NCBI GenBank assembly: GCA_025937835.1
Contig: JAICQO010000060.1
Location: forward strand, 1-41,551
Direction of reading: 5' to 3'
Length of the DNA: 41,551 nt
From: Polyangiaceae bacterium
GTDB taxonomy: Bacteria > Myxococcota_A > Polyangia > Polyangiales > Polyangiaceae
Shown here: positions 31,761 through 41,551 of the stretch, piece by piece
Numbering within the stretch: the first letter of the stretch is position 1
How the letters are laid out: the number at the start of each line of letters is the position of its first letter
Notes under the pieces: generated by a model
Database searches by the model: none
What the model saw: the letters and a program-made list of their open reading frames with translations, nothing else
What the model was told of the DNA's origin: nothing
Position numbers and translations under genes: made by a program

Positions 31761-34700
31761 TGCGGCGGCTCGCGCTTTTCGCGCTGTGGGCCGCGCTCTT
31801 TTCGTGGCTCGGGCGCGCCGAGGCGGTGCCGCACGGCCTGTTCAATCGCCCGGAAGACGACTGGCGCGTGCTCGAAACGCGCTACTTCCGCATCTACTAC
31901 ACGAGCGAAACCCCGAGCTCCGCAGCGCGCCTGGCCGAGATCGCAGACGCCACGTTCGAGCGCCTGAACGCCTTCTACGGCTACGTGCCGCCCGACAAGA
32001 TCGGCGTGACGCTGGTGGGCTACACCGGCTACAGCAACGGCTTCGCCGAGTTCGGCCGCAACCGCATCACGCTGTACACCACACCCGCGAACTTTCACGT
32101 CCGGAACCGCTCGCCTTGGCTCGAGAACGTGTTCACCCACGAGCTCAGCCACGTCCTCACGCTGAACATCGCCTCGGCGTTTCCAGGCCGCATCCCGCTC
32201 GTGCTCGGAACAGGCGCCATCCGGAGCTCGGAGTCGGAAGCGGTGCTGCGCGTGCCGCTCTACACCGGCAACTACCCGCACTGGTTCTCGGAGGGCGTCG
32301 CGCAGTTCGACACCGAGCAGACGGGCGGAGACCGCTTCGACGAGAACCGTGAGGCCTTCGAGCGCGCGGCGCTGGAAGACGGCCTTTACTACTCGCTCGA
32401 TCGGCTAGCCTTCTTCGGGGACGAGCGCTGGTACAATACGGGGTTCGGTTTTCTGCGCTACCTCGAGCGGAGGTTCGGGAAAGGCACCGTGCACCGGATT
32501 TTCCGGGACGCGGGCCAGCACTTCGACCTCGTATTTTCGTCGCTGTTCGAGCGAACGCTCGGGCTCTCGCTGGCCGAGCTCGAGCGCGATTTTCGCGCTG
32601 ACATCGAGCATCGTTTCGCTACGCACCAGCGCGCCGTCGAGGGCGGGCGCTACGACGGCGTGCGCGTTCAGCTCCCCGACGAAGATCCGCGCTTCGAAAC
32701 TCTGACGTCGCTCGAGCGCGAGCGGCTCGCCAAAGGTTACACCTCGCGGGTCGTGCGCAGCGACGGCGACCGCGTCTACTACCGTCAGGGCGAGCTGTTC
32801 CATCGGGCTCGCTTCGTCGCCGGTCGCGAGCCACGGCTCGAAGACGACGAAGTGCTGGGCGAAGGCTATGCGCTGTCACCCCACACGGAATCGAGCTTTT
32901 TCGTGCTGCGGCAAGAGGGACACTCCCCCTCACTCTTGCCGAGCTGGTACCGGCCGGAGTTCGAGAGCCCGAGCCTGTTCGTGATCGACACCGACGGCAA
33001 CGAGCGGCGGCTGCTCGCGGACTCACACTTGCACGACCTCGACGTCTGTCCGGCGCGGCGCGAGCTCGCTGCCGTGTACAACGACGGCGACGGCAGCTTG
33101 CGGCTCGCGCTCTACCCGCTCCCCGGGTTCGGCACGAAGAACGTGCGCATCGACGTGCGCGGCCGGAGCTTTCCCTTGCCGGCGCAGGCCTTCGACGAGG
33201 TGCGCTCGCCCCGCTACAGCCCGGATTGCTCGAAGCTGTTCTTCTCGCGCCGCATCGGCGACGATCACGACGTCTACGCCTGGGACTTTCGGACAGAGCG
33301 CGCCGAGCCGTTCGTCAACGAGGAAGCCTTCGAGCTTTACCCCGAGCCCGCCCGAGACGGCGTGTACTTCGCCTCGGCGCGCGACGGCACGCTCAGCGTA
33401 TACTTTCGGAGCTACGCGAGCGGCGCGCTCCGGCGCGTCACGCGCGCGCTCACCTCGCACCATTACCCCGTGCGCGCGGCGGGCGGCGTGTTCGTCGCGC
33501 GCCTGCGCGGAACCGGCTTTCACGCGTACTATCTCGACGACGCGAGCAGGAGCCCGGACTGGGTCGGCGCTCCCGTGCCCAAGACCGACCCCGGCTTCCG
33601 GCGCACCCCCGCACGAGTCGAAGGCCGCGGCTACGCGCCCTTCACCCCCAAGGATTGGACCACGCCGAGCCTCGTGCCGATGCTCGACTTCGAGTACACC
33701 CACGTCTCCGGTCGCGGCCGCAGCGCGCTCGACGCGCAGGTGGGGCTCGAGTTTTACATCGAAGATCAGCTGCGCACGCACGCGCTCTGGTTCCGCGGCT
33801 TCGTCGGCAACCGCAACGATCTGTTCCTGAGCTATCGCAACGACATGAGCCCGCTCACGTTCGAAGGGCGCGTGGGTTACAGCCAGGATCGCGACACGTA
33901 CACCTACCCGCGCCCCGACGGGCAGAGCTTCGACCACGTCACCGACGGGCGCTGGGGCTTTTTGTACGGCTCCGCGGCGCTGCCCCTCGACAATTTCTGG
34001 CGCGTCGGGCTGGAAGCCGAGACCATCCGCGACATCGGCACCACGCTGAGCGCCGCCGCGCGCGACGCCGACTTCGAGAACCCTCGCTACGCGCGCGACC
34101 GCGCGGGCGCGTTCGTCACCTTCTCCGGCCTCGATCGCACCGATCCGTCGTATCGCGAGCGCTGGGTCAACAAGCGCGGCTACCGCGAGTCCGACCTCCG
34201 CGCCTCGTACGCCGTCGAGCGGCTCGACCGCTCGCTCGCCGAATTCGGCCTGCAGACGGGCGACAAACCGTACCTGCGCGCCGAGCTCGAACACCGCGAG
34301 TACCTGGCTCTGCCGTCGTTGTTTCGCGGCAGCTTCGACCACACCCTCGAGCTCGGCCTCAAGCTCGGCTGGATCAGCCGCGACATCGGCTTTCTACCGT
34401 TCTACGGCGGCGGGCGGCTCTACTCGCAGAGCACGCCCGAGCTCAACACCTCCGTCGGCTTCAGCGGTTACTCGTCGTTCAGCCTGTCGGGAGAGAGCCT
34501 CCTGAACCTGTCCGCCGCGTACCGTTTTCCACTCTTGCGCGGCCTCGGCTGGGACCTCGGTCCGTTCTTCCTCGAAGACGTCTACGCCCAGCTATTCACC
34601 TCGTGGGGCAACATCTGGGGCTACGACGCGGACGGCTCCCGGCAGCGGCCGCTGCTCGATCGCGCCGCCAACGGCCGGCGCATCGTCGGTGACGTGGGCG

Positions 34701-35842: not shown

Positions 35843-36130
35843 CTCTGACGGCTTCTGTCGCCAAGACGCCAAGACAACGCCAAGAGTCGCCAAGATGTTT
35901 TGGGGGTAACGCTTCACGTCACTGCTCCCACGGAAAGGCTCTGACGGGTTCTGCCGCAAAGGCGCAAGGGGCCCAAAGAGTCGCAAGGTTTTTCGGGGGA
36001 GCGGTTCACGGCACCGACACCCCAGGGGAAGGCTCTGAGGGCTTTGTCGCCAAGGCGCCAAGATAACGCCAAGAGTCGCCAAGATGTTTTGGGGGGGAGC
36101 GGTTCAAGTCACTGGCTCCCACGGATAAGG
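35843..36130 (+). repeat. Left array: three tandem 94-98-bp repeats, plus orientation
   Basis: Units 35843-35938, 35939-36032 and 36033-36130 each begin CTCTGA(C/G)GG and end in a GG(A/T)(A)AAGG-like block. Units 1 and 3 share GTCGCCAAG-x-CGCCAAGA; unit 2 has CCGCAAAGGCGCAAGG instead. All contain a G-run after TTTT and GGTTCA/GCTTCA near the middle-end. A start of a fourth unit (CTTGCGCGGTTTTTGT) is visible at 36131. From there to 36292 no gene is seen. The same family, reversed, occurs at 41277-41551. Confidence 0.9.
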
Positions 36131-36292
36131 CTTGCGCGGTTTTTGTTGGCGGCGCGCTACGAATGTTGCGGAACGCGGGCACCGCGCGCGACGCTCCACC
36201 GCGCGCTGGGATGGGTAACGGCTACGAAATAGTGAGCGGACTGCGATCCTGACCCCGAGTACCGGCAGCTGCCTGCCGACGAACGTGGGTCG

Positions 36293-36327
36293 ATTTCTTG
36301 CGTCCATCCGGGGGGCTCTCCGTCTTC
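36293..36327 (+). promoter_or_regulatory. Candidate ECF-type promoter A
   Basis: ATTTCTTGCGTCCATCCG, 11 bp, then GTCTTC. The same element with identical spacing precedes the sigma factor gene (40560-40594). GTCTTC ends 42 bp before the ATG of the Cys-rich protein, a normal leader length. Spacing between the CATCCG and GTC blocks fits ECF -35/-10 geometry. Confidence 0.65.
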
Positions 36328-36369
36328 GTAGGTGAGAGGCGAGGATCGCCGGAAGAAGAGGAATACAGG

Positions 36370-36585
36370 ATGCTCAACGAAATTCAGAACAGCGAGACCC
36401 AGGGCGGGGCGCACGACGCGGCTCAGGAGAAGGACGACCAAGGAGGCTGCTGCGGCGGCTCCCCCCCGCAAGGTGTCGACGCCTGCTGTGCGCTCGACGC
36501 CGCGGTCAAGGCGACTGGTGGAGTCGGCTGTGGTTGCGGCCCACGGGCTGCGAGCCGAGGCAGCCAGAAAGGGCGGTGCTGCTGA
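36370..36585 (+). CDS. Small Cys-rich protein (71 aa, four Cys pairs) of the arsenic island
   Basis: Eight Cys in 71 residues, arranged as GGCCGG, DACCALD, GCGCG and a terminal RCC; the first 28 residues are Glu/Gln/Asp-rich without Cys. There is no signal peptide, so it is cytoplasmic. The start at 36370 is preceded by GAAGAGGA; an upstream TTG in frame (36298) lies in the promoter element and is unlikely. The stop shares a base with the ATG of the flavoprotein gene (TGATG), so the two are coupled. I do not recognise a family. Adjacent Cys pairs bind soft metals or trivalent arsenicals well, so a metallothionein-like or arsenic-carrier role is a reasonable inference from the context. Confidence 0.75.
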   Translation: MLNEIQNSETQGGAHDAAQEKDDQGGCCGGSPPQGVDACCALDAAVKATGGVGCGCGPRAASRGSQKGRCC

Positions 36586-37898
36586 TGGCCGCGCTCGAGA
36601 CCTTGCCTGTCGCGGTGATCGGAGCCGGACCCGTGGGGCTCGCGGCAGCGGCGCGCCTCCTGGAGCGTGGCCTCGAGCCGTTGATCCTCGAGGCTGCTCG
36701 GGACGTGGCTGCGAGCCCGCGCGACTGGGGCCACGTTCGCCTGTTCTCTCCCTGGCGGTACAACGTCGATAAGTCAGCGGTGGAGGCGCTCGAGGCAGCG
36801 GGTTGGACGGCGCCGCCGCCGGACGAGCTGCCAACCGGTCACGAGCTGTACCGTCACTACTTGCAGCCGCTATCGGCTCTCAGCACCATTCGGGACCGTC
36901 TGCACGTGGATCGGCGCGTCGTGGCCATCACCCGGCACGGCGTCGACAAGGTGCGCACCGCCGGGCGTGAAGCTGTCCCCTTCGTGATCAGAACGACGAG
37001 CGAAAGCGGCGTGAGCGAGGAGTTCCTGGCTCGGGCGGTGATCGACGCTACGGGGACGTGGTGGAGCCCGAACCCCCTCGGCGCTGCTGGTATTCCGGCC
37101 GCCGGTGAATCCGCCCACAGGGCACGCATCCACTATGGGATTCCGGATGTGCTCGACAGAGATCGCGGCCGGTACGCGGCAAAGACAACGCTAGTCGTCG
37201 GCGCTGGTCACTCGGCGGCCAACAGCATCCTCGGCCTCGCCGAGCTCGCGCGGACCACGGCCAACACGAACATCGTCTGGGCTACGCGCAGCGACAATCT
37301 GACGCGAGTCTTCGGCGGCGGGGACGACGACGGCTTGCCCGCGCGCGGAAAGCTCGGCGCAGAGCTCCGGGCATTGACGGAGAACGGCAGCCTCTCGCTC
37401 GTTCAGAACTTTCGGATCGAGGCGTTGCGCGAAGTAGCCGGGAAGCTCGAGGTCGCCGGGACCCGCGCGGGGAAGGTGTTCGCGCTGTCAGGCATCGACT
37501 CGATCATCGCGTCGACCGGACAGCGGCCGGACCTCGCGATGACCCGTGAGCTTCGCCTCGCGCTGGATCCTGCCCTCGAATGCGCAGCGGTGTTGGGGCC
37601 GCTCATCGACCCCAACGAGCACAGCTGCGGAACGGTGCGACCTCACGGCGCTCGCGAGCTCGCCCACCCGGAGCCGAACTACTACATGATCGGCGCCAAG
37701 AGCTACGGTCGAGCGCCGACGTTCCTGCTGGCCACCGGCTACGAGCAGGCGCGTTCGGTGGCAGCGATGCTCGCCGGCGATCATGAAGCGGCGGCTCGCG
37801 TCGAGCTCGAGCTGCCCGAGACGGGCGTGTGCAACAGCAACCTGCAAAGCCAAGCTGGCAGCTGCTGCGTCCCGGGGAACCAGGGCGGCTGCTGCTGA
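36585..37898 (+). CDS. Flavin monooxygenase-like FAD/NAD(P) oxidoreductase with C-terminal CC tags (ArsO-like)
   Basis: A 437-residue FMO/TrxR-like flavoprotein: FAD site AVIGAGPVGLAAAARLLERG (residues about 9-28), GHVRLFSPWRYNVDKSAVEAL, VIDATGTWWSPNPLGAAGIPA, then the NAD(P) site TLVVGAGHSAANSILGLAEL, and SIIASTGQRPDL near the C-terminal end of the FAD half. The tail LQSQAGSCCVPGNQGGCC has two adjacent-Cys pairs beyond the folded core. Similar flavoproteins (ArsO, ArsV) occur in arsenic operons, where some oxidise trivalent organoarsenicals; that is the best fit, not proven. Coupled to the small Cys-rich gene and followed by the MFS gene after 9 nt. Confidence 0.85.
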   Translation: MAALETLPVAVIGAGPVGLAAAARLLERGLEPLILEAARDVAASPRDWGHVRLFSPWRYNVDKSAVEALEAAGWTAPPPDELPTGHELYRHYLQPLSALSTIRDRLHVDRRVVAITRHGVDKVRTAGREAVPFVIRTTSESGVSEEFLARAVIDATGTWWSPNPLGAAGIPAAGESAHRARIHYGIPDVLDRDRGRYAAKTTLVVGAGHSAANSILGLAELARTTANTNIVWATRSDNLTRVFGGGDDDGLPARGKLGAELRALTENGSLSLVQNFRIEALREVAGKLEVAGTRAGKVFALSGIDSIIASTGQRPDLAMTRELRLALDPALECAAVLGPLIDPNEHSCGTVRPHGARELAHPEPNYYMIGAKSYGRAPTFLLATGYEQARSVAAMLAGDHEAAARVELELPETGVCNSNLQSQAGSCCVPGNQGGCC

Positions 37899-37907
37899 GC
37901 GGGTCCA

Positions 37908-39113
37908 GTGCAGGACGAGACAGCTCCTGGACGGCCCTGGGCCCGGGTGGTCGGGCTATCGATCGACCAGCTCGTTGCCTGGGGCGTCCTCTACTACTCG
38001 TACAGCGTGCTGTCGGTGCCGATCGCTCGCGACCTGGGCGTGGCGGTGTCGACCATCGCTGCCGCCTTCTCGGGCTCACTGCTGGTCCCTGCTCTGCTAG
38101 CCCCACGAGTAGGACGCCTGCTCGATCGCAAGGGGGCACGCTCCGTACTGCTCTACGGAGCGGTCATCGGTCCCGTTGCTTTGGGTGGACTGGCGGCTGC
38201 CCAGCGGGAGTTGCCACTGCTGCTCGCGTTCGCCGGGCTCGGCGTGGCGCAGGCATTGTCACTCTACGAGCCAGCCTTTCGCGCGGTGGTCGATTGGTTC
38301 CCTGCCGCCGAGCAACGCGCCAGAGCCCTGCTCGTGCTCACGGCCATCGGGGGGTTCGCAAGCACGGCGTTCCTGCCGCTCACTGCTGCCCTCCTCGATG
38401 AGTTCGGCTGGCGGCTGACGCTGCTGATGCTGGCGACGCTGACCGCCGTCGTGACGCTGGGGATACGGCTGGCTCTCCCCCGACCAGCGCCGGGCGCACC
38501 GGCGCGGCGACCGGCGTCCCAGCCCTTCCGTGACGGTGCACCGAACACGAGCAGGCTCTTGAGCGGCGGCTTCGCGCTTCAGTCGTTCGCGGCCAGCGGT
38601 GCGACGATCTGTCTGGTGTGGCAATTCGTCGAACGCGGCGAGCCGCTCGCCGCGGCGGCTTCCATCGCTGGCCTGGCTGGAGCATCGCAGGTCCCCGGTC
38701 GCTTGCTGCTCTTGCCGCTGAGCAGAGTGGTCCCCACGCACATCCGGCTACCCTGGTTGCTCATCGTTCAAAGCACTGCTCTGTTTGCGCTCGCCGTCCT
38801 CTCCGGGCCCGCTCTCATCGTCGCCGTGATCACGTTCGGCGCTGCTGGTGGTGCGATGACGCTCGAGCGCGCCACGGTCGTCGTGGAGTTGTTCGGTCGA
38901 GAGAGTTTCGGCTCGGCCCACGGCCGGCTGGCCTCGGGCGCGTTGTTCGCGCGAGCCGCCGCGCCCTTCGCCGTCGAGCTGCTGCACGCCACCCTCAGCT
39001 ACGCGGTCGTGCTCGGATGGCTGGCCATCTGTCTGCTCGCGGGCAGTGCGATAATCGGCGTCGCCCTTCGTGCTCGACGGCGGCCCGCTACCGAGCACCA
39101 GGTGACTCGATAG
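37908..39113 (+). CDS. MFS transporter of the arsenic island
   Basis: A 401-residue major-facilitator protein with about 12 hydrophobic helices; the A-motif-like loop is RVGRLLDRKGARSVLLYG after helix 2. The central loop (about 185-205) is Pro/Ala/Arg-rich. The start is a GTG at 37908, 9 nt after the flavoprotein stop. MFS exporters of arsenicals are known (ArsK, ArsJ families) but I cannot assign this one to either by eye; the gene order suggests that it exports the product of the flavoprotein or a thiol-bound arsenical. No ArsB, Acr3 or ArsP gene is in the window, so this is the only candidate efflux protein of the island. No Cys-rich tail. Confidence 0.85.
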   Translation: MQDETAPGRPWARVVGLSIDQLVAWGVLYYSYSVLSVPIARDLGVAVSTIAAAFSGSLLVPALLAPRVGRLLDRKGARSVLLYGAVIGPVALGGLAAAQRELPLLLAFAGLGVAQALSLYEPAFRAVVDWFPAAEQRARALLVLTAIGGFASTAFLPLTAALLDEFGWRLTLLMLATLTAVVTLGIRLALPRPAPGAPARRPASQPFRDGAPNTSRLLSGGFALQSFAASGATICLVWQFVERGEPLAAAASIAGLAGASQVPGRLLLLPLSRVVPTHIRLPWLLIVQSTALFALAVLSGPALIVAVITFGAAGGAMTLERATVVVELFGRESFGSAHGRLASGALFARAAAPFAVELLHATLSYAVVLGWLAICLLAGSAIIGVALRARRRPATEHQVTR

Positions 39114-39121
39114 CACGGCGC

Positions 39122-39153
39122 GGGAATTCCCCTAATTTCGATAATTTTCGAAG
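39122..39153. promoter_or_regulatory. Candidate ArsR operator region before arsR
   Basis: Two palindromes: GGGAATTCCC (39122-39131) and TTCGA-TAATTT-TCGAA (39137-39152). The second lies 44 bp before the arsR ATG, overlaps a GATAAT -10-like element, and is similar to TTTCGACATTTCTAGAAA at 39524-39541 before arsI. A/T-rich dyads of this size are typical ArsR/SmtB sites. Confidence 0.6.
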
Positions 39154-39196
39154 AACCGCTTGCGGGCCTGATTCGGTCAATTAGAGCTAGAAGCGC

Positions 39197-39502
39197 ATGA
39201 CCAAAGTCGACCGCCATGCAGAGCAGCTCGCCGCCCTGGGGCATTCCGTCCGGCTGAGCATCCTGCGTTACGTGGTGCAGGGCGACAAAGGCGGGACGGC
39301 CGCGGGTGACATTCAGGGCCACGTCGACGTGCCAGCCTCGACGCTGAGCCACCACCTCAAGCGACTCGTGGATGCCGGTCTGCTCTCCACGCGGAACGAG
39401 GGAACCTACCACTACTACGCCGCGATCTACGAGAATCTGCGCGCGCTCACCGACTACCTCTGGGAAGACTGCTGCAAGCGCGGCAAGGGTAGCTGCTGCT
39501 GA
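39197..39502 (+). CDS. arsR: ArsR/SmtB-family repressor with C-terminal Cys quartet
   Basis: A 101-residue winged-helix repressor. The helix-turn-helix is DVPASTLSHHLKRLVDAGLLSTRNEGTYHYY. The classical E. coli ArsR metal site (CVC in the recognition-helix region) is absent; instead Cys lie at 92, 93, 100 and 101 in WEDCCKRGKGSCC. This is very like Acidithiobacillus ferrooxidans-type ArsR, where As(III) binds Cys95, Cys96 and Cys102. It should release its operator on binding As(III) or a trivalent organoarsenical. An operator-like dyad precedes it and a related one precedes arsI, the next gene (50 bp). Confidence 0.92.
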   Translation: MTKVDRHAEQLAALGHSVRLSILRYVVQGDKGGTAAGDIQGHVDVPASTLSHHLKRLVDAGLLSTRNEGTYHYYAAIYENLRALTDYLWEDCCKRGKGSCC

Positions 39503-39523
39503 GGTCCTTTTTTTGCGTCGCTA

Positions 39524-39543
39524 TTTCGACATTTCTAGAAATG
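39524..39543. promoter_or_regulatory. Candidate ArsR operator before arsI
   Basis: TTTCGACATTTCTAGAAATG resembles the dyad before arsR (TTTCGA common, then A-x-TT-x-T-x-GAA in register). It includes a perfect 12-bp palindrome ATTTCTAGAAAT (39531-39542). It lies 9 bp before the arsI start, close enough to hinder initiation. A run of seven T (39508-39514) precedes it. Confidence 0.5.
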
Positions 39544-39552
39544 GAGCGGTTC

Positions 39553-40032
39553 ATGAACATCCTCAAGCCCCACATCTCGCTCAACGTCTCCAACATCGAG
39601 GCGTCGGTCGCGTTCTACGAGAAGGCGTTCGGCATCCAGGCCACGAAGCGTCGGCCGGGCTATGCCAAGTTCGATCTCAGCGAGCCGAACCTCAACCTGA
39701 CGATGAACGAGTCTCCTCGCACCGGCATCAACGCGAGCCACTTCGGCATCCAGGTCGCGAGCACCGAGGACGTGGCCACGGCTACCGCGCGCTTCACCCA
39801 GGCGGGGCTCGCCACCAGGACCGAGGAAAACACGGCCTGTTGCTACGCGGTTCAGGACAAGGTCTGGGTCGAAGATCCCGACGGCAACGCCTGGGAGGTC
39901 TTCGTGGTGAAGAGCGACTCACCGTTGCTCCACGAACAGGCGCCTAGCGTTCACGAGAAGGCGGCAGGCGCGGGCTGCTGCGTCCCCACGCTCCACGGCA
40001 TCAAGCAGGGCGGCGGTGGTTGCTGCCCCTGA
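39553..40032 (+). CDS. arsI: ArsI: Fe(II) C-As lyase (VOC/glyoxalase fold) with Cys-rich tail
   Basis: A 159-residue VOC-family protein. The start at 39553 has GGAG 8 nt before it; the ATG at 39541 lies in the operator-like dyad and is less likely. Key residues match ArsI: His7 (LKPHISL), His63 (ASHFGIQV), the adjacent pair Cys96-Cys97 (NTACCYAV) and Glu115 (GNAWEVF). In characterised ArsI the two His and the Glu bind Fe(II) and the Cys pair binds trivalent methyl- or phenylarsenicals, whose C-As bond is split with O2. After the core there is a 40-residue tail with AGAGCCVPTL and a terminal GGGGCCP, two more Cys pairs. Encoded between ArsR and ArsN2; expected to demethylate MAs(III) to As(III). 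Confidence 0.93.
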   Translation: MNILKPHISLNVSNIEASVAFYEKAFGIQATKRRPGYAKFDLSEPNLNLTMNESPRTGINASHFGIQVASTEDVATATARFTQAGLATRTEENTACCYAVQDKVWVEDPDGNAWEVFVVKSDSPLLHEQAPSVHEKAAGAGCCVPTLHGIKQGGGGCCP

Positions 40033-40123
40033 TCCGAAGGGCAAGCCGATCGAACGCGTGCGCGAGATCCGTGACGACGTGAAGGCCCGAGTCCTGGAGC
40101 TAATCGAGCAGGAGAGGAAATAA
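40022..40123 (+). pseudogene. arsC: Remnant of arsenate reductase (arsC, LMW-phosphatase type), C-terminal 33 codons
   Basis: Between arsI and arsN2 one frame reads PDPKGKPIERVREIRDDVK then ARVLELIEQERK and stop. DP followed by a charged helix of the form E-x-VR-x-IRDDV-x-x-RV is the C-terminal end of thioredoxin-coupled ArsC. The P-loop and all catalytic Cys are missing, and the frame runs upstream into the arsI tail. Its TAA shares a base with the ATG of arsN2, the overlap expected of an original arsC-arsN2 pair. It looks like a deletion that joined arsI to the end of arsC. Confidence 0.7.
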
Positions 40124-40557
40124 TGGTCGACCTGCGGAACGCAGTGCCGTCCGACCTCGAAGCTGTCACGAGCCTCCTGCGCGAGGCCGGCCTGCCCACG
40201 GAGGGCGTCGAGGACCAGTTCCCAGCCCAGTACATGGTCGCGACCGTGAAGGGCTCCGTCGTGGGTGTCGCGGGGCTCGAGCTCCACGGCCGCGCGGGGT
40301 TGTTCCGTTCGCTGGCCGTCCGCCCGACGTTCCGCGGTACGGGCGTCGGAACCGCCTTGCTCCGTGAGCGTACCGAGTGCGCACGGGGTCTGGGTCTCAG
40401 CCAGGTCTTCCTCCTCACGACCAGCGCGCCGGGCTACTTCGAAAAACTCGGGTTCCTTCGCACAGAGCGAGGAGCCGTCCCCGAAGAGCTAGCGAAATCC
40501 AAGGAGTTCGCGTCCGTCTGCCCGAGCTCGGCAACTTGTCTGGTCTGGCAGCCATGA
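40123..40557 (+). CDS. arsN2: ArsN2-type GNAT acetyltransferase
   Basis: A 144-residue GNAT protein: VVGVAGLELHGRAGLFRSLAVRPTFRGTGVGTALLRE holds the acetyl-CoA pyrophosphate loop (RGTGVG), followed by VFLLTTSAPGYFEKLGFLRTERGAVPEELAKSKEF and ASVCPSSATCLVW. This order, and the YFEKLGF and CPSSA texts, match the arsenic-operon acetyltransferase ArsN2; ArsN1 instead acetylates arsinothricin. The substrate of ArsN2 is not well known. Its start overlaps the arsC remnant stop. Two Cys (CPSSATC) near the C-terminus could bind arsenic. Likely co-transcribed with arsR and arsI. Confidence 0.85.
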   Translation: MVDLRNAVPSDLEAVTSLLREAGLPTEGVEDQFPAQYMVATVKGSVVGVAGLELHGRAGLFRSLAVRPTFRGTGVGTALLRERTECARGLGLSQVFLLTTSAPGYFEKLGFLRTERGAVPEELAKSKEFASVCPSSATCLVWQP

Positions 40558-40559
40558 TA

Positions 40560-40594
40560 ATTTTCTGCGTCCATCCGTCCGACGTCCTGTCTTC
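40560..40594 (+). promoter_or_regulatory. Candidate ECF-type promoter B before the sigma gene
   Basis: ATTTTCTGCGTCCATCCG, 11 bp, then GTCTTC, the same element and spacing as 36293-36327. It begins just after the arsN2 stop and ends 54 bp before the sigma start. The early leader also matches: AGAGGC-x-(C)AGGAT occurs in both. Autoregulation by the ECF factor is the simple reading. Confidence 0.65.
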
Positions 40595-40634
40595 AAGCCA
40601 GAGGCTCAGGATGACGCAAACGCTCTACCCACCC

Positions 40635-40641
40635 AAGGAGG
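40635..40641 (+). promoter_or_regulatory. Strong ribosome-binding site fixing the GTG start of the sigma gene
   Basis: AAGGAGG, 7 nt before GTG at 40649. It is the strongest Shine-Dalgarno I noticed in the window and supports the GTG start. Confidence 0.85.
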
Positions 40642-40648
40642 CGCACTA

Positions 40649-41221
40649 GTGCTCGCCGAGGGCATACCTTCATCGCATCGAGAGCTCGCGCAGAAGCTAC
40701 GGCCGTTCGTTGCGCGACGCGTGCCCGAGGCCGACGTGGACGACGTGCTCCAGGACGTTTTCGTTCGGGTGCAGCAGGGGCTCCCCGGGCTCCGCACTCA
40801 GGAGCGGTTCATTCCGTGGCTCTATCAAGTCGCACGGAGCGCCGTGCAGGAGACGCTTCGCCAGCGTGCTCGGCACCCTCTGGCAGGCGAGCACGAGGAG
40901 CAAGCGCAGCTCGACGCCGAAACATCGGCTACGTCTGATTCCGGCCTCGCCGCGTTTGCCACCAGCGCGATCGCTCAGCTGCCGTCGCCTTACCGGGAAG
41001 CGCTGACGCTCACGGAGCTTCAGGGGATGACGCAAAGCGAGGCCGCGGAGGTGCTCGGTATCTCGCTGTCCGGTGCAAAGTCGCGTGTTCAGCGCGGTCG
41101 CGAGAAGCTCCGAGAAATCCTCGAAAATAGCTGCAAGATCGCGCTCGACGTCCGGGGCGGCGTCATCGAGTGCGAACCCCGCCAGCCAGGGAACTGTTCC
41201 TGTAGCGGCCGGCAGGACTGA
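40649..41221 (+). CDS. SigZ-like ECF sigma factor with Cys-containing C-terminal tail
   Basis: A 190-residue sigma-70 family ECF factor. Region 2 is LRPFVARRVPEADVDDVLQDVFVRVQQGLPGLRTQERFIPWLYQVARS; region 4 is LTELQGMTQSEAAEVLGISLSGAKSRVQRGREKLREIL. The extra tail ENSCKIALDVRGGVIECEPRQPGNCSCSGRQD has Cys162, 175, 183 and 185; the CKIALD-x-RGG-x-x-x-x form is shared by SigZ-type factors. No anti-sigma gene is adjacent, so the tail could be a direct metal/arsenic or redox sensor (inference). The same promoter-like element lies before this gene and before the small Cys-rich protein operon. The gene is followed by the reversed repeat array. Confidence 0.9.
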   Translation: MLAEGIPSSHRELAQKLRPFVARRVPEADVDDVLQDVFVRVQQGLPGLRTQERFIPWLYQVARSAVQETLRQRARHPLAGEHEEQAQLDAETSATSDSGLAAFATSAIAQLPSPYREALTLTELQGMTQSEAAEVLGISLSGAKSRVQRGREKLREILENSCKIALDVRGGVIECEPRQPGNCSCSGRQD

Positions 41222-41276
41222 GGCATGTCCGAGGCGTGTCTTGTCGCCAGGCGCACGGCGACAAAGCCGTTCCTAG

Positions 41277-41551
41277 CCTTCTCCTTGGATACGAGCGAAG
41301 CCAAGCGCTCCCCCCCAAAAAACTTGCGAGTCTTTGCGCCCCCTTGCGCCTTTGCGGCAGAACCCCCCAAAGCCTTTTCCCCGCGTACGAGTGACGCCAA
41401 GCGCTCCCCACAAACCCCTTGGCGACTCTTGGCGACTCTTGGCGCCTTGGCGACAGAAGCCGTCTGAGCCTTTCCCGTGGCTACGAGTGACGTAGAGCGC
41501 TCCCCCCCAAAAAACTTGCGAGTCTTTGCGCCCCCTTGCGCCTTTGCGGCA
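41277..41551 (-). repeat. Right array: 96-bp tandem repeats in reverse orientation, running off the window
   Basis: Units 41277-41372, 41373-41468 and 41469-41551 (cut) read on the minus strand like those at 35843-36130. The first and third are the GCAAAGGCGCAAGG subtype and are near-identical to each other; the middle one is the GCCAAGGCGCCAAGAG subtype. A decayed unit edge (rc CTAGGAACGGCTTTGTCGCC) is seen at 41257-41276. Between the sigma gene stop (41221) and the array there is no other gene. Confidence 0.9.

Follow-up and report, generated by a model that had tools for sequence, protein, structure and literature searches.

Contig JAICQO010000060.1 of the Polyangiaceae bacterium assembly GCA_025937835.1, a draft genome of 6.92 Mb in 227 contigs, carries near its end an island of arsenic-related genes that includes a SigZ-like extracytoplasmic function (ECF) sigma factor with a cysteine tail. 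We analyzed this contig entire (41,551 nucleotides, hereafter the window) and assigned gene identities with curated NCBIfam and Pfam profile models, comparing bit scores with the curated cut-offs. Open reading frames and profile models placed eight features, seven intact genes and an arsC remnant, between positions 36293 and 41221, exactly where an earlier reading of the letters by themselves (the sequence-only reading) had put them; all are on the forward strand, as are the two promoters described below.

The first operon begins with a gene encoding a small protein (36370..36585; 71 amino acids) whose eight cysteines occur in pairs; it matches no family in Pfam or NCBIfam and is probably an arsenical-binding or chaperone peptide. 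Its stop codon overlaps the start of a gene (36585..37898) for an ArsO-like flavoprotein dependent on flavin adenine dinucleotide and NAD(P), with a Pyr_redox_3 domain and C-terminal Cys pairs, followed by a major facilitator superfamily (MFS) transporter gene (37908..39113) whose best model is that of ArsK (NF033733) and whose product is a probable arsenical exporter. The sequence-only reading had named these two an ArsO-like flavoprotein and an MFS exporter. They are indeed relatives of ArsO and ArsK, and membership of either family was rejected, as both proteins score well under the curated cut-offs (44.4 bits against 425 for NF040505, and 156.9 against 400 for NF033733). The middle of the island encodes an ArsR repressor (39197..39502) that passes the cut-off for ArsR/SmtB metalloregulators (NF033788, 62.3 bits against 55) and has C-terminal Cys pairs (DCCKRGKGSCC); ArsI, the C-As lyase of organoarsenical demethylation (39541..40032, with a possible alternative start at 39553; NF041414, 174.6 bits against 116); the last 30 codons of an arsC gene (40031..40122; TIGR02689 profile positions 102-126 of 126, E = 9e-4); and the N-acetyltransferase ArsN2 (40123..40557; NF040501, 140.6 bits against 125). 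The sigma factor gene (40649..41221) comes last, with a GTG start and a strong AAGGAGG Shine-Dalgarno sequence.

A promoter-like element shared by the sigma gene and the first operon

The sequence TGCGTCCATCCG-N11-GTCTTC is present, with identical spacing, upstream of both the Cys-rich gene and the sigma gene. The first site (36300..36326) has the -35 sequence TGCGTCC and the -10 sequence CGTCTT, is an exact match to the pattern and scores 32.5 with a position weight matrix (PWM) built from relatives in the phylum (see below); the second (40567..40593) is also an exact match and scores 24.4. These were the only sigma-promoter-like sites that the PWM found in the island, the next best scoring 1.5, and a search by the same scan for such a promoter before arsR or arsI found none. 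Because a loose search allowing five mismatches was swamped by chance matches, the genome was searched with the exact pattern and the PWM instead. The pattern GCGTCCWT-N14-GTCWT matches the 6.92 Mb genome exactly three times. Two of the matches are those of the island, and the third, on another contig (C112), precedes an arsM-sigma operon whose sigma factor is 51% identical to that of the island. All three matches thus lie at loci of SigZ-type sigma factors (the first operon, the sigma gene and the arsM-sigma operon); the reverse strand of the genome gave no exact match and neither did a backwards control pattern. The promoter-like element that the sequence-only reading saw before both transcription units is therefore the same element with the same spacing, far beyond chance. 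A relaxed pattern had 13 matches in the host genome, compared with 18 for its control, an absence of excess that leaves no further regulon members visible and suggests that the regulon is small. An N-terminally truncated arsR remnant lies beside the arsM-sigma operon on C112 (approximately 32310-32460), with an aquaporin-like gene nearby.

Relatives of the sigma factor within Myxococcota

Relatives of the sigma factor were found in 61 of the 379 genomes of the phylum set, and we compared the regions around the best 40 of them together with the island (41 loci). In 34 of these loci, the sigma gene is preceded by an arsM gene of the same orientation; one member checked for identity scored 351 bits against the cut-off of 263 of the NCBIfam arsenite methyltransferase model. 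Among the seven loci without arsM, three have arsI (L063, L068 and L077), two have the flavoprotein-MFS pair (L062 and L067) and the island has both, leaving L065, at which the queries used detected no arsenic gene, as the sole exception; an arsenic gene thus adjoins the sigma gene in 40 of the 41 loci. By this comparison, the link between the sigma factor and arsenic appears far wider than the sequence-only reading could see, with arsM as its standard partner.

The exact element occurs at 23 sites in 20 of the 41 loci, with the consensus TGCGTCCTTt-N12-cCGTCTTc and fixed spacing. The PWM was trained on the sites of these 20 loci, and later tests depend less on them; it revealed a strong site (a score of at least 18, the best of the locus and before the operon) in 13 further loci and weaker sites at the same place in some others. 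A separate ArsM search provided a natural control, in which the 30 arsM genes that ranked closest within the phylum were divided according to whether a sigma gene is adjacent. The element was present 34-191 bp upstream of arsM in all 20 genes with an adjacent sigma gene (scores 25-38) and in none of the ten without one (best score ~6.6; Fisher p = 3e-8), although many of the 20 positives had also trained the PWM. Since the ten element-free arsM genes are 70-81% identical, the element belongs to the sigma factor and not to arsM. In a set of 20 genomes from the same family that lack the sigma gene, scattered exact matches occur at the chance level, ~0.7 per genome.

The proposal that the sigma factor and the Cys-rich/flavoprotein operon belong together also held up among relatives. 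A search of the 379 genomes for close orthologues of the flavoprotein (51-66% identity) turned up six besides the host genome, and the sigma gene is present in five of these six. Counting the island, six of the seven genomes with the flavoprotein carry the sigma gene, compared with 61 of 379 overall (p ~1e-4). The element itself precedes these flavoprotein or MFS operons, exactly in G150, G215 and G349 and in degenerate form with correct spacing in G116; in G241 the flavoprotein and MFS genes come first, followed by the element and then the sigma gene. A gene for a small Cys-rich protein precedes the flavoprotein or MFS gene in three other operons; the protein of G116 (CCGG...ACCALDAEVKASGGSGCGCG) is clearly homologous to that of the island and occupies the corresponding position, and those of G150 and G349 are Cys-rich counterparts. 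The latter genome has three elements, before the flavoprotein gene, before the sigma gene and before the genes for the Cys-rich protein and MFS transporter. In G150, the operon consisting of the element and the Cys-rich, flavoprotein and MFS genes is on a different contig from the sigma gene, which implies action in trans. More distant flavoproteins (~33-39% identity) had neither the MFS gene nor the element in the stretches examined. At one locus of G215 (L201), an internally deleted sigma gene, which has lost most of region 2 and the linker and kept the Cys tail, lies between the element and the flavoprotein gene; an intact copy with arsM is present elsewhere in that genome.

SigZ-type loci in other phyla

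A genome scan with the sigma alignment yielded 29 SigZ-type loci and, as controls, 46 loci of other ECF sigma factors. The SigZ-type loci come from Nitrospirota, Verrucomicrobiota, Lentisphaerota, Poribacteria, Bacteroidota, Acidobacteriota, Chloroflexota, Bacillota, Actinomycetota and Gammaproteobacteria, and one is from a myxobacterium. An arsenic gene is nearby in 18 of the 29 SigZ-type loci and in one of the 46 controls, a weak ArsM-like match (Fisher p = 6e-9), the arsH cases having been found with a hidden Markov model query that was not run on the controls. Outside the phylum, the partners are arsM, arsI, arsH (two loci), arsR with a permease gene and the flavoprotein-MFS pair, and all eight ArsI partners tested, three of them from the phylum set, pass the ArsI cut-off. 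The flavoprotein is paired with the same MFS transporter in Myxococcota and in a Moraxellaceae metagenome-assembled genome, in which the element precedes the flavoprotein gene. In members of Nitrospirota, Lentisphaerota, Poribacteria, Bacteroidota, Chloroflexota and Gammaproteobacteria, no site of the locus scores better than the element that precedes the partner operon, and in most of the loci outside the phylum the best site is an element at the matching place (for example in Nitrospira, Lentisphaerae, Pontibacter, Pseudoalteromonas, Thiotrichaceae and Anaerolineales); its score exceeds those of all 60 simulated sequences in ~16 of 30 loci. The type of partner switches repeatedly across the sigma tree, indicating that the arsenic link is not a single inherited pairing. 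At the Anaerolineales locus (L094), a gene resembling the DF-family (seleno)proteins, with a CxxC motif, occupies the usual place of arsM ~740 bp upstream of the sigma gene and has a near-perfect element in front of it.

The sigma factor and its cysteine tail

The island sigma factor has the architecture of an ECF sigma factor, containing only the domains Sigma70_r2 and Sigma70_r4_2 and matching ECF structures in fold. The SigZ models fit it best of all; because it scores under both of their cut-offs (153.1 bits against 168.65 for TIGR02959 and 154.5 against 212 for NF007215), we call it SigZ-like. Relatives from Nitrospira, Pontibacter, Pseudoalteromonas, Moraxellaceae and Cohnella pass the TIGR02959 cut-off, and a tree placed the island protein in a clade with sigma factors that do so. 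In the same tree, all sigma factors with a Cys tail grouped apart from five control ECF sigma factors (89/92; moderate support). No relative was found among viral contigs.

The tail (41129..41218), the proposed arsenical sensor, contains all of the cysteines of the protein, Cys162, Cys175, Cys183 and Cys185. In an alignment of 33 homologues, Cys162 is invariant and Cys183 nearly so, and at least three cysteines, mostly including a Cys-Cys pair, are present in 70 of the 72 tails counted. The sequence-only reading was thus right to see a sigma factor with a Cys tail as part of an ars island, and the tail is conserved among homologues. The aligned Myxococcota tails that lack the first Cys of the pair, among them that of the island, have Cys175. 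About 30 residues of the island protein extend beyond the part covered by most solved ECF sigma factors, which align mostly to residue 154-161 only and to residue 168 at most. AlphaFold2 predicted a beta-hairpin (162-166/172-177) directly after region 4, with a predicted local distance difference test (pLDDT) score of ~84 there and 65 in the last ten residues. No anti-sigma family is conserved within ~5 kb of the sigma genes in the 41 phylum loci.

Comparison with known systems

The closest parallels in logic are CorE and CorE2 of Myxococcus xanthus (former ECF44, now ECF238), which, like the island sigma factor, are ECF sigma factors with a Cys-rich C-terminal extension. For these two and for OrbS of Burkholderia cenocepacia, sensing of metal through C-terminal cysteines has been shown experimentally (PMC3107203, PMC8999054, PMC9023288). 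CorE and CorE2 have no anti-sigma factor and use the extension as an on-board metal sensor, and by analogy the tail of the island sigma factor, near which no anti-sigma gene is conserved, would be of the same type. CorE2 also has a Cys-Cys pair, as do most SigZ-type tails, although the cysteine spacing of the island tail differs from those of both CorE and CorE2 (PMC9023288). Their partner genes concern copper (CorE) or cadmium and zinc (CorE2), whereas those of the island sigma factor concern arsenic, and in sequence the island protein is nearest to the SigZ models. We rejected CorE-like identity since the CXC motif in the linker between sigma2 and sigma4 of CorE (PMC8999054) has no counterpart in the island protein, which has no Cys outside its tail. 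Its resemblance to CorE is one of logic, and the linker test sets it apart. The four C-terminal cysteines of OrbS likewise form a metal sensor to which the island tail can be likened (PMC9023288), but OrbS is inhibited by Fe(II) and serves iron starvation genes. For the groups ECF287 and ECF288, a mode of action like that of CorE has been suggested on account of their C-terminal cysteines (PMC8999054).

SigZ of Bacillus subtilis was described in 1997, in work cited by PMC2700814, and a table of the B. subtilis sigma factors published in 2023 gives its function only as "ECF" (PMC10141391). Our search of the literature turned up no paper that gives SigZ a part in arsenic metabolism or that pairs an ECF sigma factor with arsM, though a mention may exist in the large ECF classification, in reviews of metal-responsive ECF sigma factors or in the CorE2 work.

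ArsR-controlled ars operons, including organoarsenical ones with arsI, arsM, arsH and arsN2, share their enzymes with the island and likewise encode an ArsR with paired C-terminal cysteines; the island differs from them in the addition of a sigma factor with its own promoter. To our knowledge, ars operons are normally controlled by a repressor only. RpoN (sigma-54) is a case of an alternative sigma factor with a part in arsenic metabolism, as proposed for the island, but it acts with a two-component system in a respiratory or oxidative pathway, without sensing by the sigma factor itself. That case is the control of arsenite oxidase in Herminiimonas arsenicoxydans (PMC2848651).

A model with two controls and its alternatives

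The sequence-only reading had proposed two layers of control, ArsR for arsR, arsI and arsN2 and the sigma factor for the first operon and itself. Inspection and a scan identified an AT-rich box common to the regions before arsR (39135..39152, ATTTCGATAATTTTCGAA) and before arsI (39523..39540, ATTTCGACATTTCTAGAA), which differs from the sigma element and is likely the ArsR operator. With only two sigma sites in the island and a different box at arsR and arsI, the two-layer model fits the DNA. The gap between the first operon and arsR is 83 bp, and read-through from the former into the latter is possible.

We suggest that the island is an arsenic and organoarsenical detoxification cluster under two controls. 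The SigZ-like sigma factor would carry its own sensor, the C-terminal tail, in which three thiolates would bind trivalent arsenicals (As(III) and methylated forms such as the methylarsenical MAs(III)), releasing or activating the sigma factor; As(III) favors three thiolates, and methylated arsenicals are proposed as inducers because the partner genes point that way. The activated sigma factor would direct RNA polymerase to TGCGTCC(T/A)T-N13-CGTCTT promoters at three targets in the genome: the Cys-rich/flavoprotein/MFS operon, its own gene (a positive feedback) and the arsM-sigma operon on the other contig. Separate control by ArsR would cover the central genes of the island, arsR and arsI-arsN2. 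The parts of this model differ in strength. We are nearly certain of the association of sigma factor, promoter and arsenic genes as a comparative result, and have good confidence in a layer of control by ArsR. Because the same sigma factor with a Cys tail and a fixed promoter stands beside arsenic genes in many unrelated bacteria, it is probably an arsenic sensor-switch with the tail as sensor, and we hold somewhat less firmly that binding activates rather than inhibits it. An arsenical-sensing SigZ-like sigma factor with separate ArsR control is, as a whole, the explanation that we favor with reasonable confidence. If it is true, positive, sigma-based control of arsenic detoxification exists beside ArsR repressors. 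The comparison ties the SigZ family to genes for arsenic methylation and demethylation, names a promoter and indicates residues to mutate, making the orphan SigZ directly testable; a biosensor for arsenicals could also be built on the sigma-promoter pair.

Several observations weigh against this explanation. The support is comparative; the candidate ArsR boxes number two; the island sigma factor has Ser-Cys in place of the usual Cys-Cys pair; the element is absent from two myxobacterial loci (L063 and L077); and OrbS provides an example of a Cys tail that turns its sigma factor off (PMC9023288). No arsenic gene was found near the SigZ-type sigma factors of Cohnella, Photobacterium, Thalassomonas and Nocardia, and in the first three genera the element precedes an aldo-keto reductase gene (L093), a glutathione S-transferase (GST)-like gene (L105) and a PatB-type C-S lyase gene (L097), respectively, so some members of the family could respond to a broader ligand (thiol-reactive stress). 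Several Bacillota, Vibrionaceae and Nocardia loci without a nearby arsenic gene rule out the idea that an arsenic link is universal among SigZ-type sigma factors; part of the family seems to serve other genes, and any general claim must therefore be limited. For the broad proposition that SigZ-type sigma factors are cross-phylum one-component sensors of (methyl)arsenicals, driving arsM, arsI, arsH and flavoprotein-exporter operons via a near-universal promoter, we see about as much reason for belief as for doubt.

The arsenic-free loci with the element also lend weight to an alternative in which the sigma factor drives these promoters in response to a signal other than a tail-bound arsenical (zinc, oxidized thiols, electrophiles or an unlinked anti-sigma factor) and the arsenic genes are part of a thiol-stress regulon, and CorE2, with its Cys-Cys tail, does sense cadmium and zinc (PMC9023288). 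We consider this unlikely, as no other kind of partner comes near arsenic genes in frequency, the arsenic theme is kept while the partner enzyme changes several times and no anti-sigma gene is conserved nearby. Alternatively, ArsR, which is encoded in the island, could govern all of it, with the sigma factor set by ArsR or by the housekeeping polymerase as a mere amplifier that senses nothing; the run GATAATTTTC of the arsR box reappears directly upstream of the sigma -35 element. However, a T-rich stretch before the -35 sequence is common to many of these sigma promoters, most sigma loci of relatives are simple arsM-sigma operons with no adjacent arsR found by the ArsR query used, and the conserved tail cysteines would need another reason, making this alternative quite improbable. 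The least credible possibility, to which we give almost no weight, is that the sigma gene merely travels with the island and takes no part in arsenic control: although the decayed arsC and the dispersed repeats flanking the island (see below) mark it as a patchwork, the uniqueness of the shared element in the genome, the 20/20 versus 0/10 result of the natural control and the conservation across phyla have largely refuted this possibility already.

Other features of the island and its surroundings

Repeated Cys pairs end four of the island proteins, the Cys-rich protein (36448-36582), the flavoprotein (37842-37895), ArsR (39466-39499) and ArsI (39973-40029), and the ArsM proteins of relatives have repeated Cys pairs at both termini. 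These pairs are possibly a common motif for handing over arsenicals. Repeats of ~100 nt in inverted orientation bracket the island (35856-36132 and 41257-41551), and the contig ends within one of them. About 60 more copies are present throughout the genome, including some close to the arsM-sigma operon of C112. Movement or recombination of the island may have been aided by these repeats.

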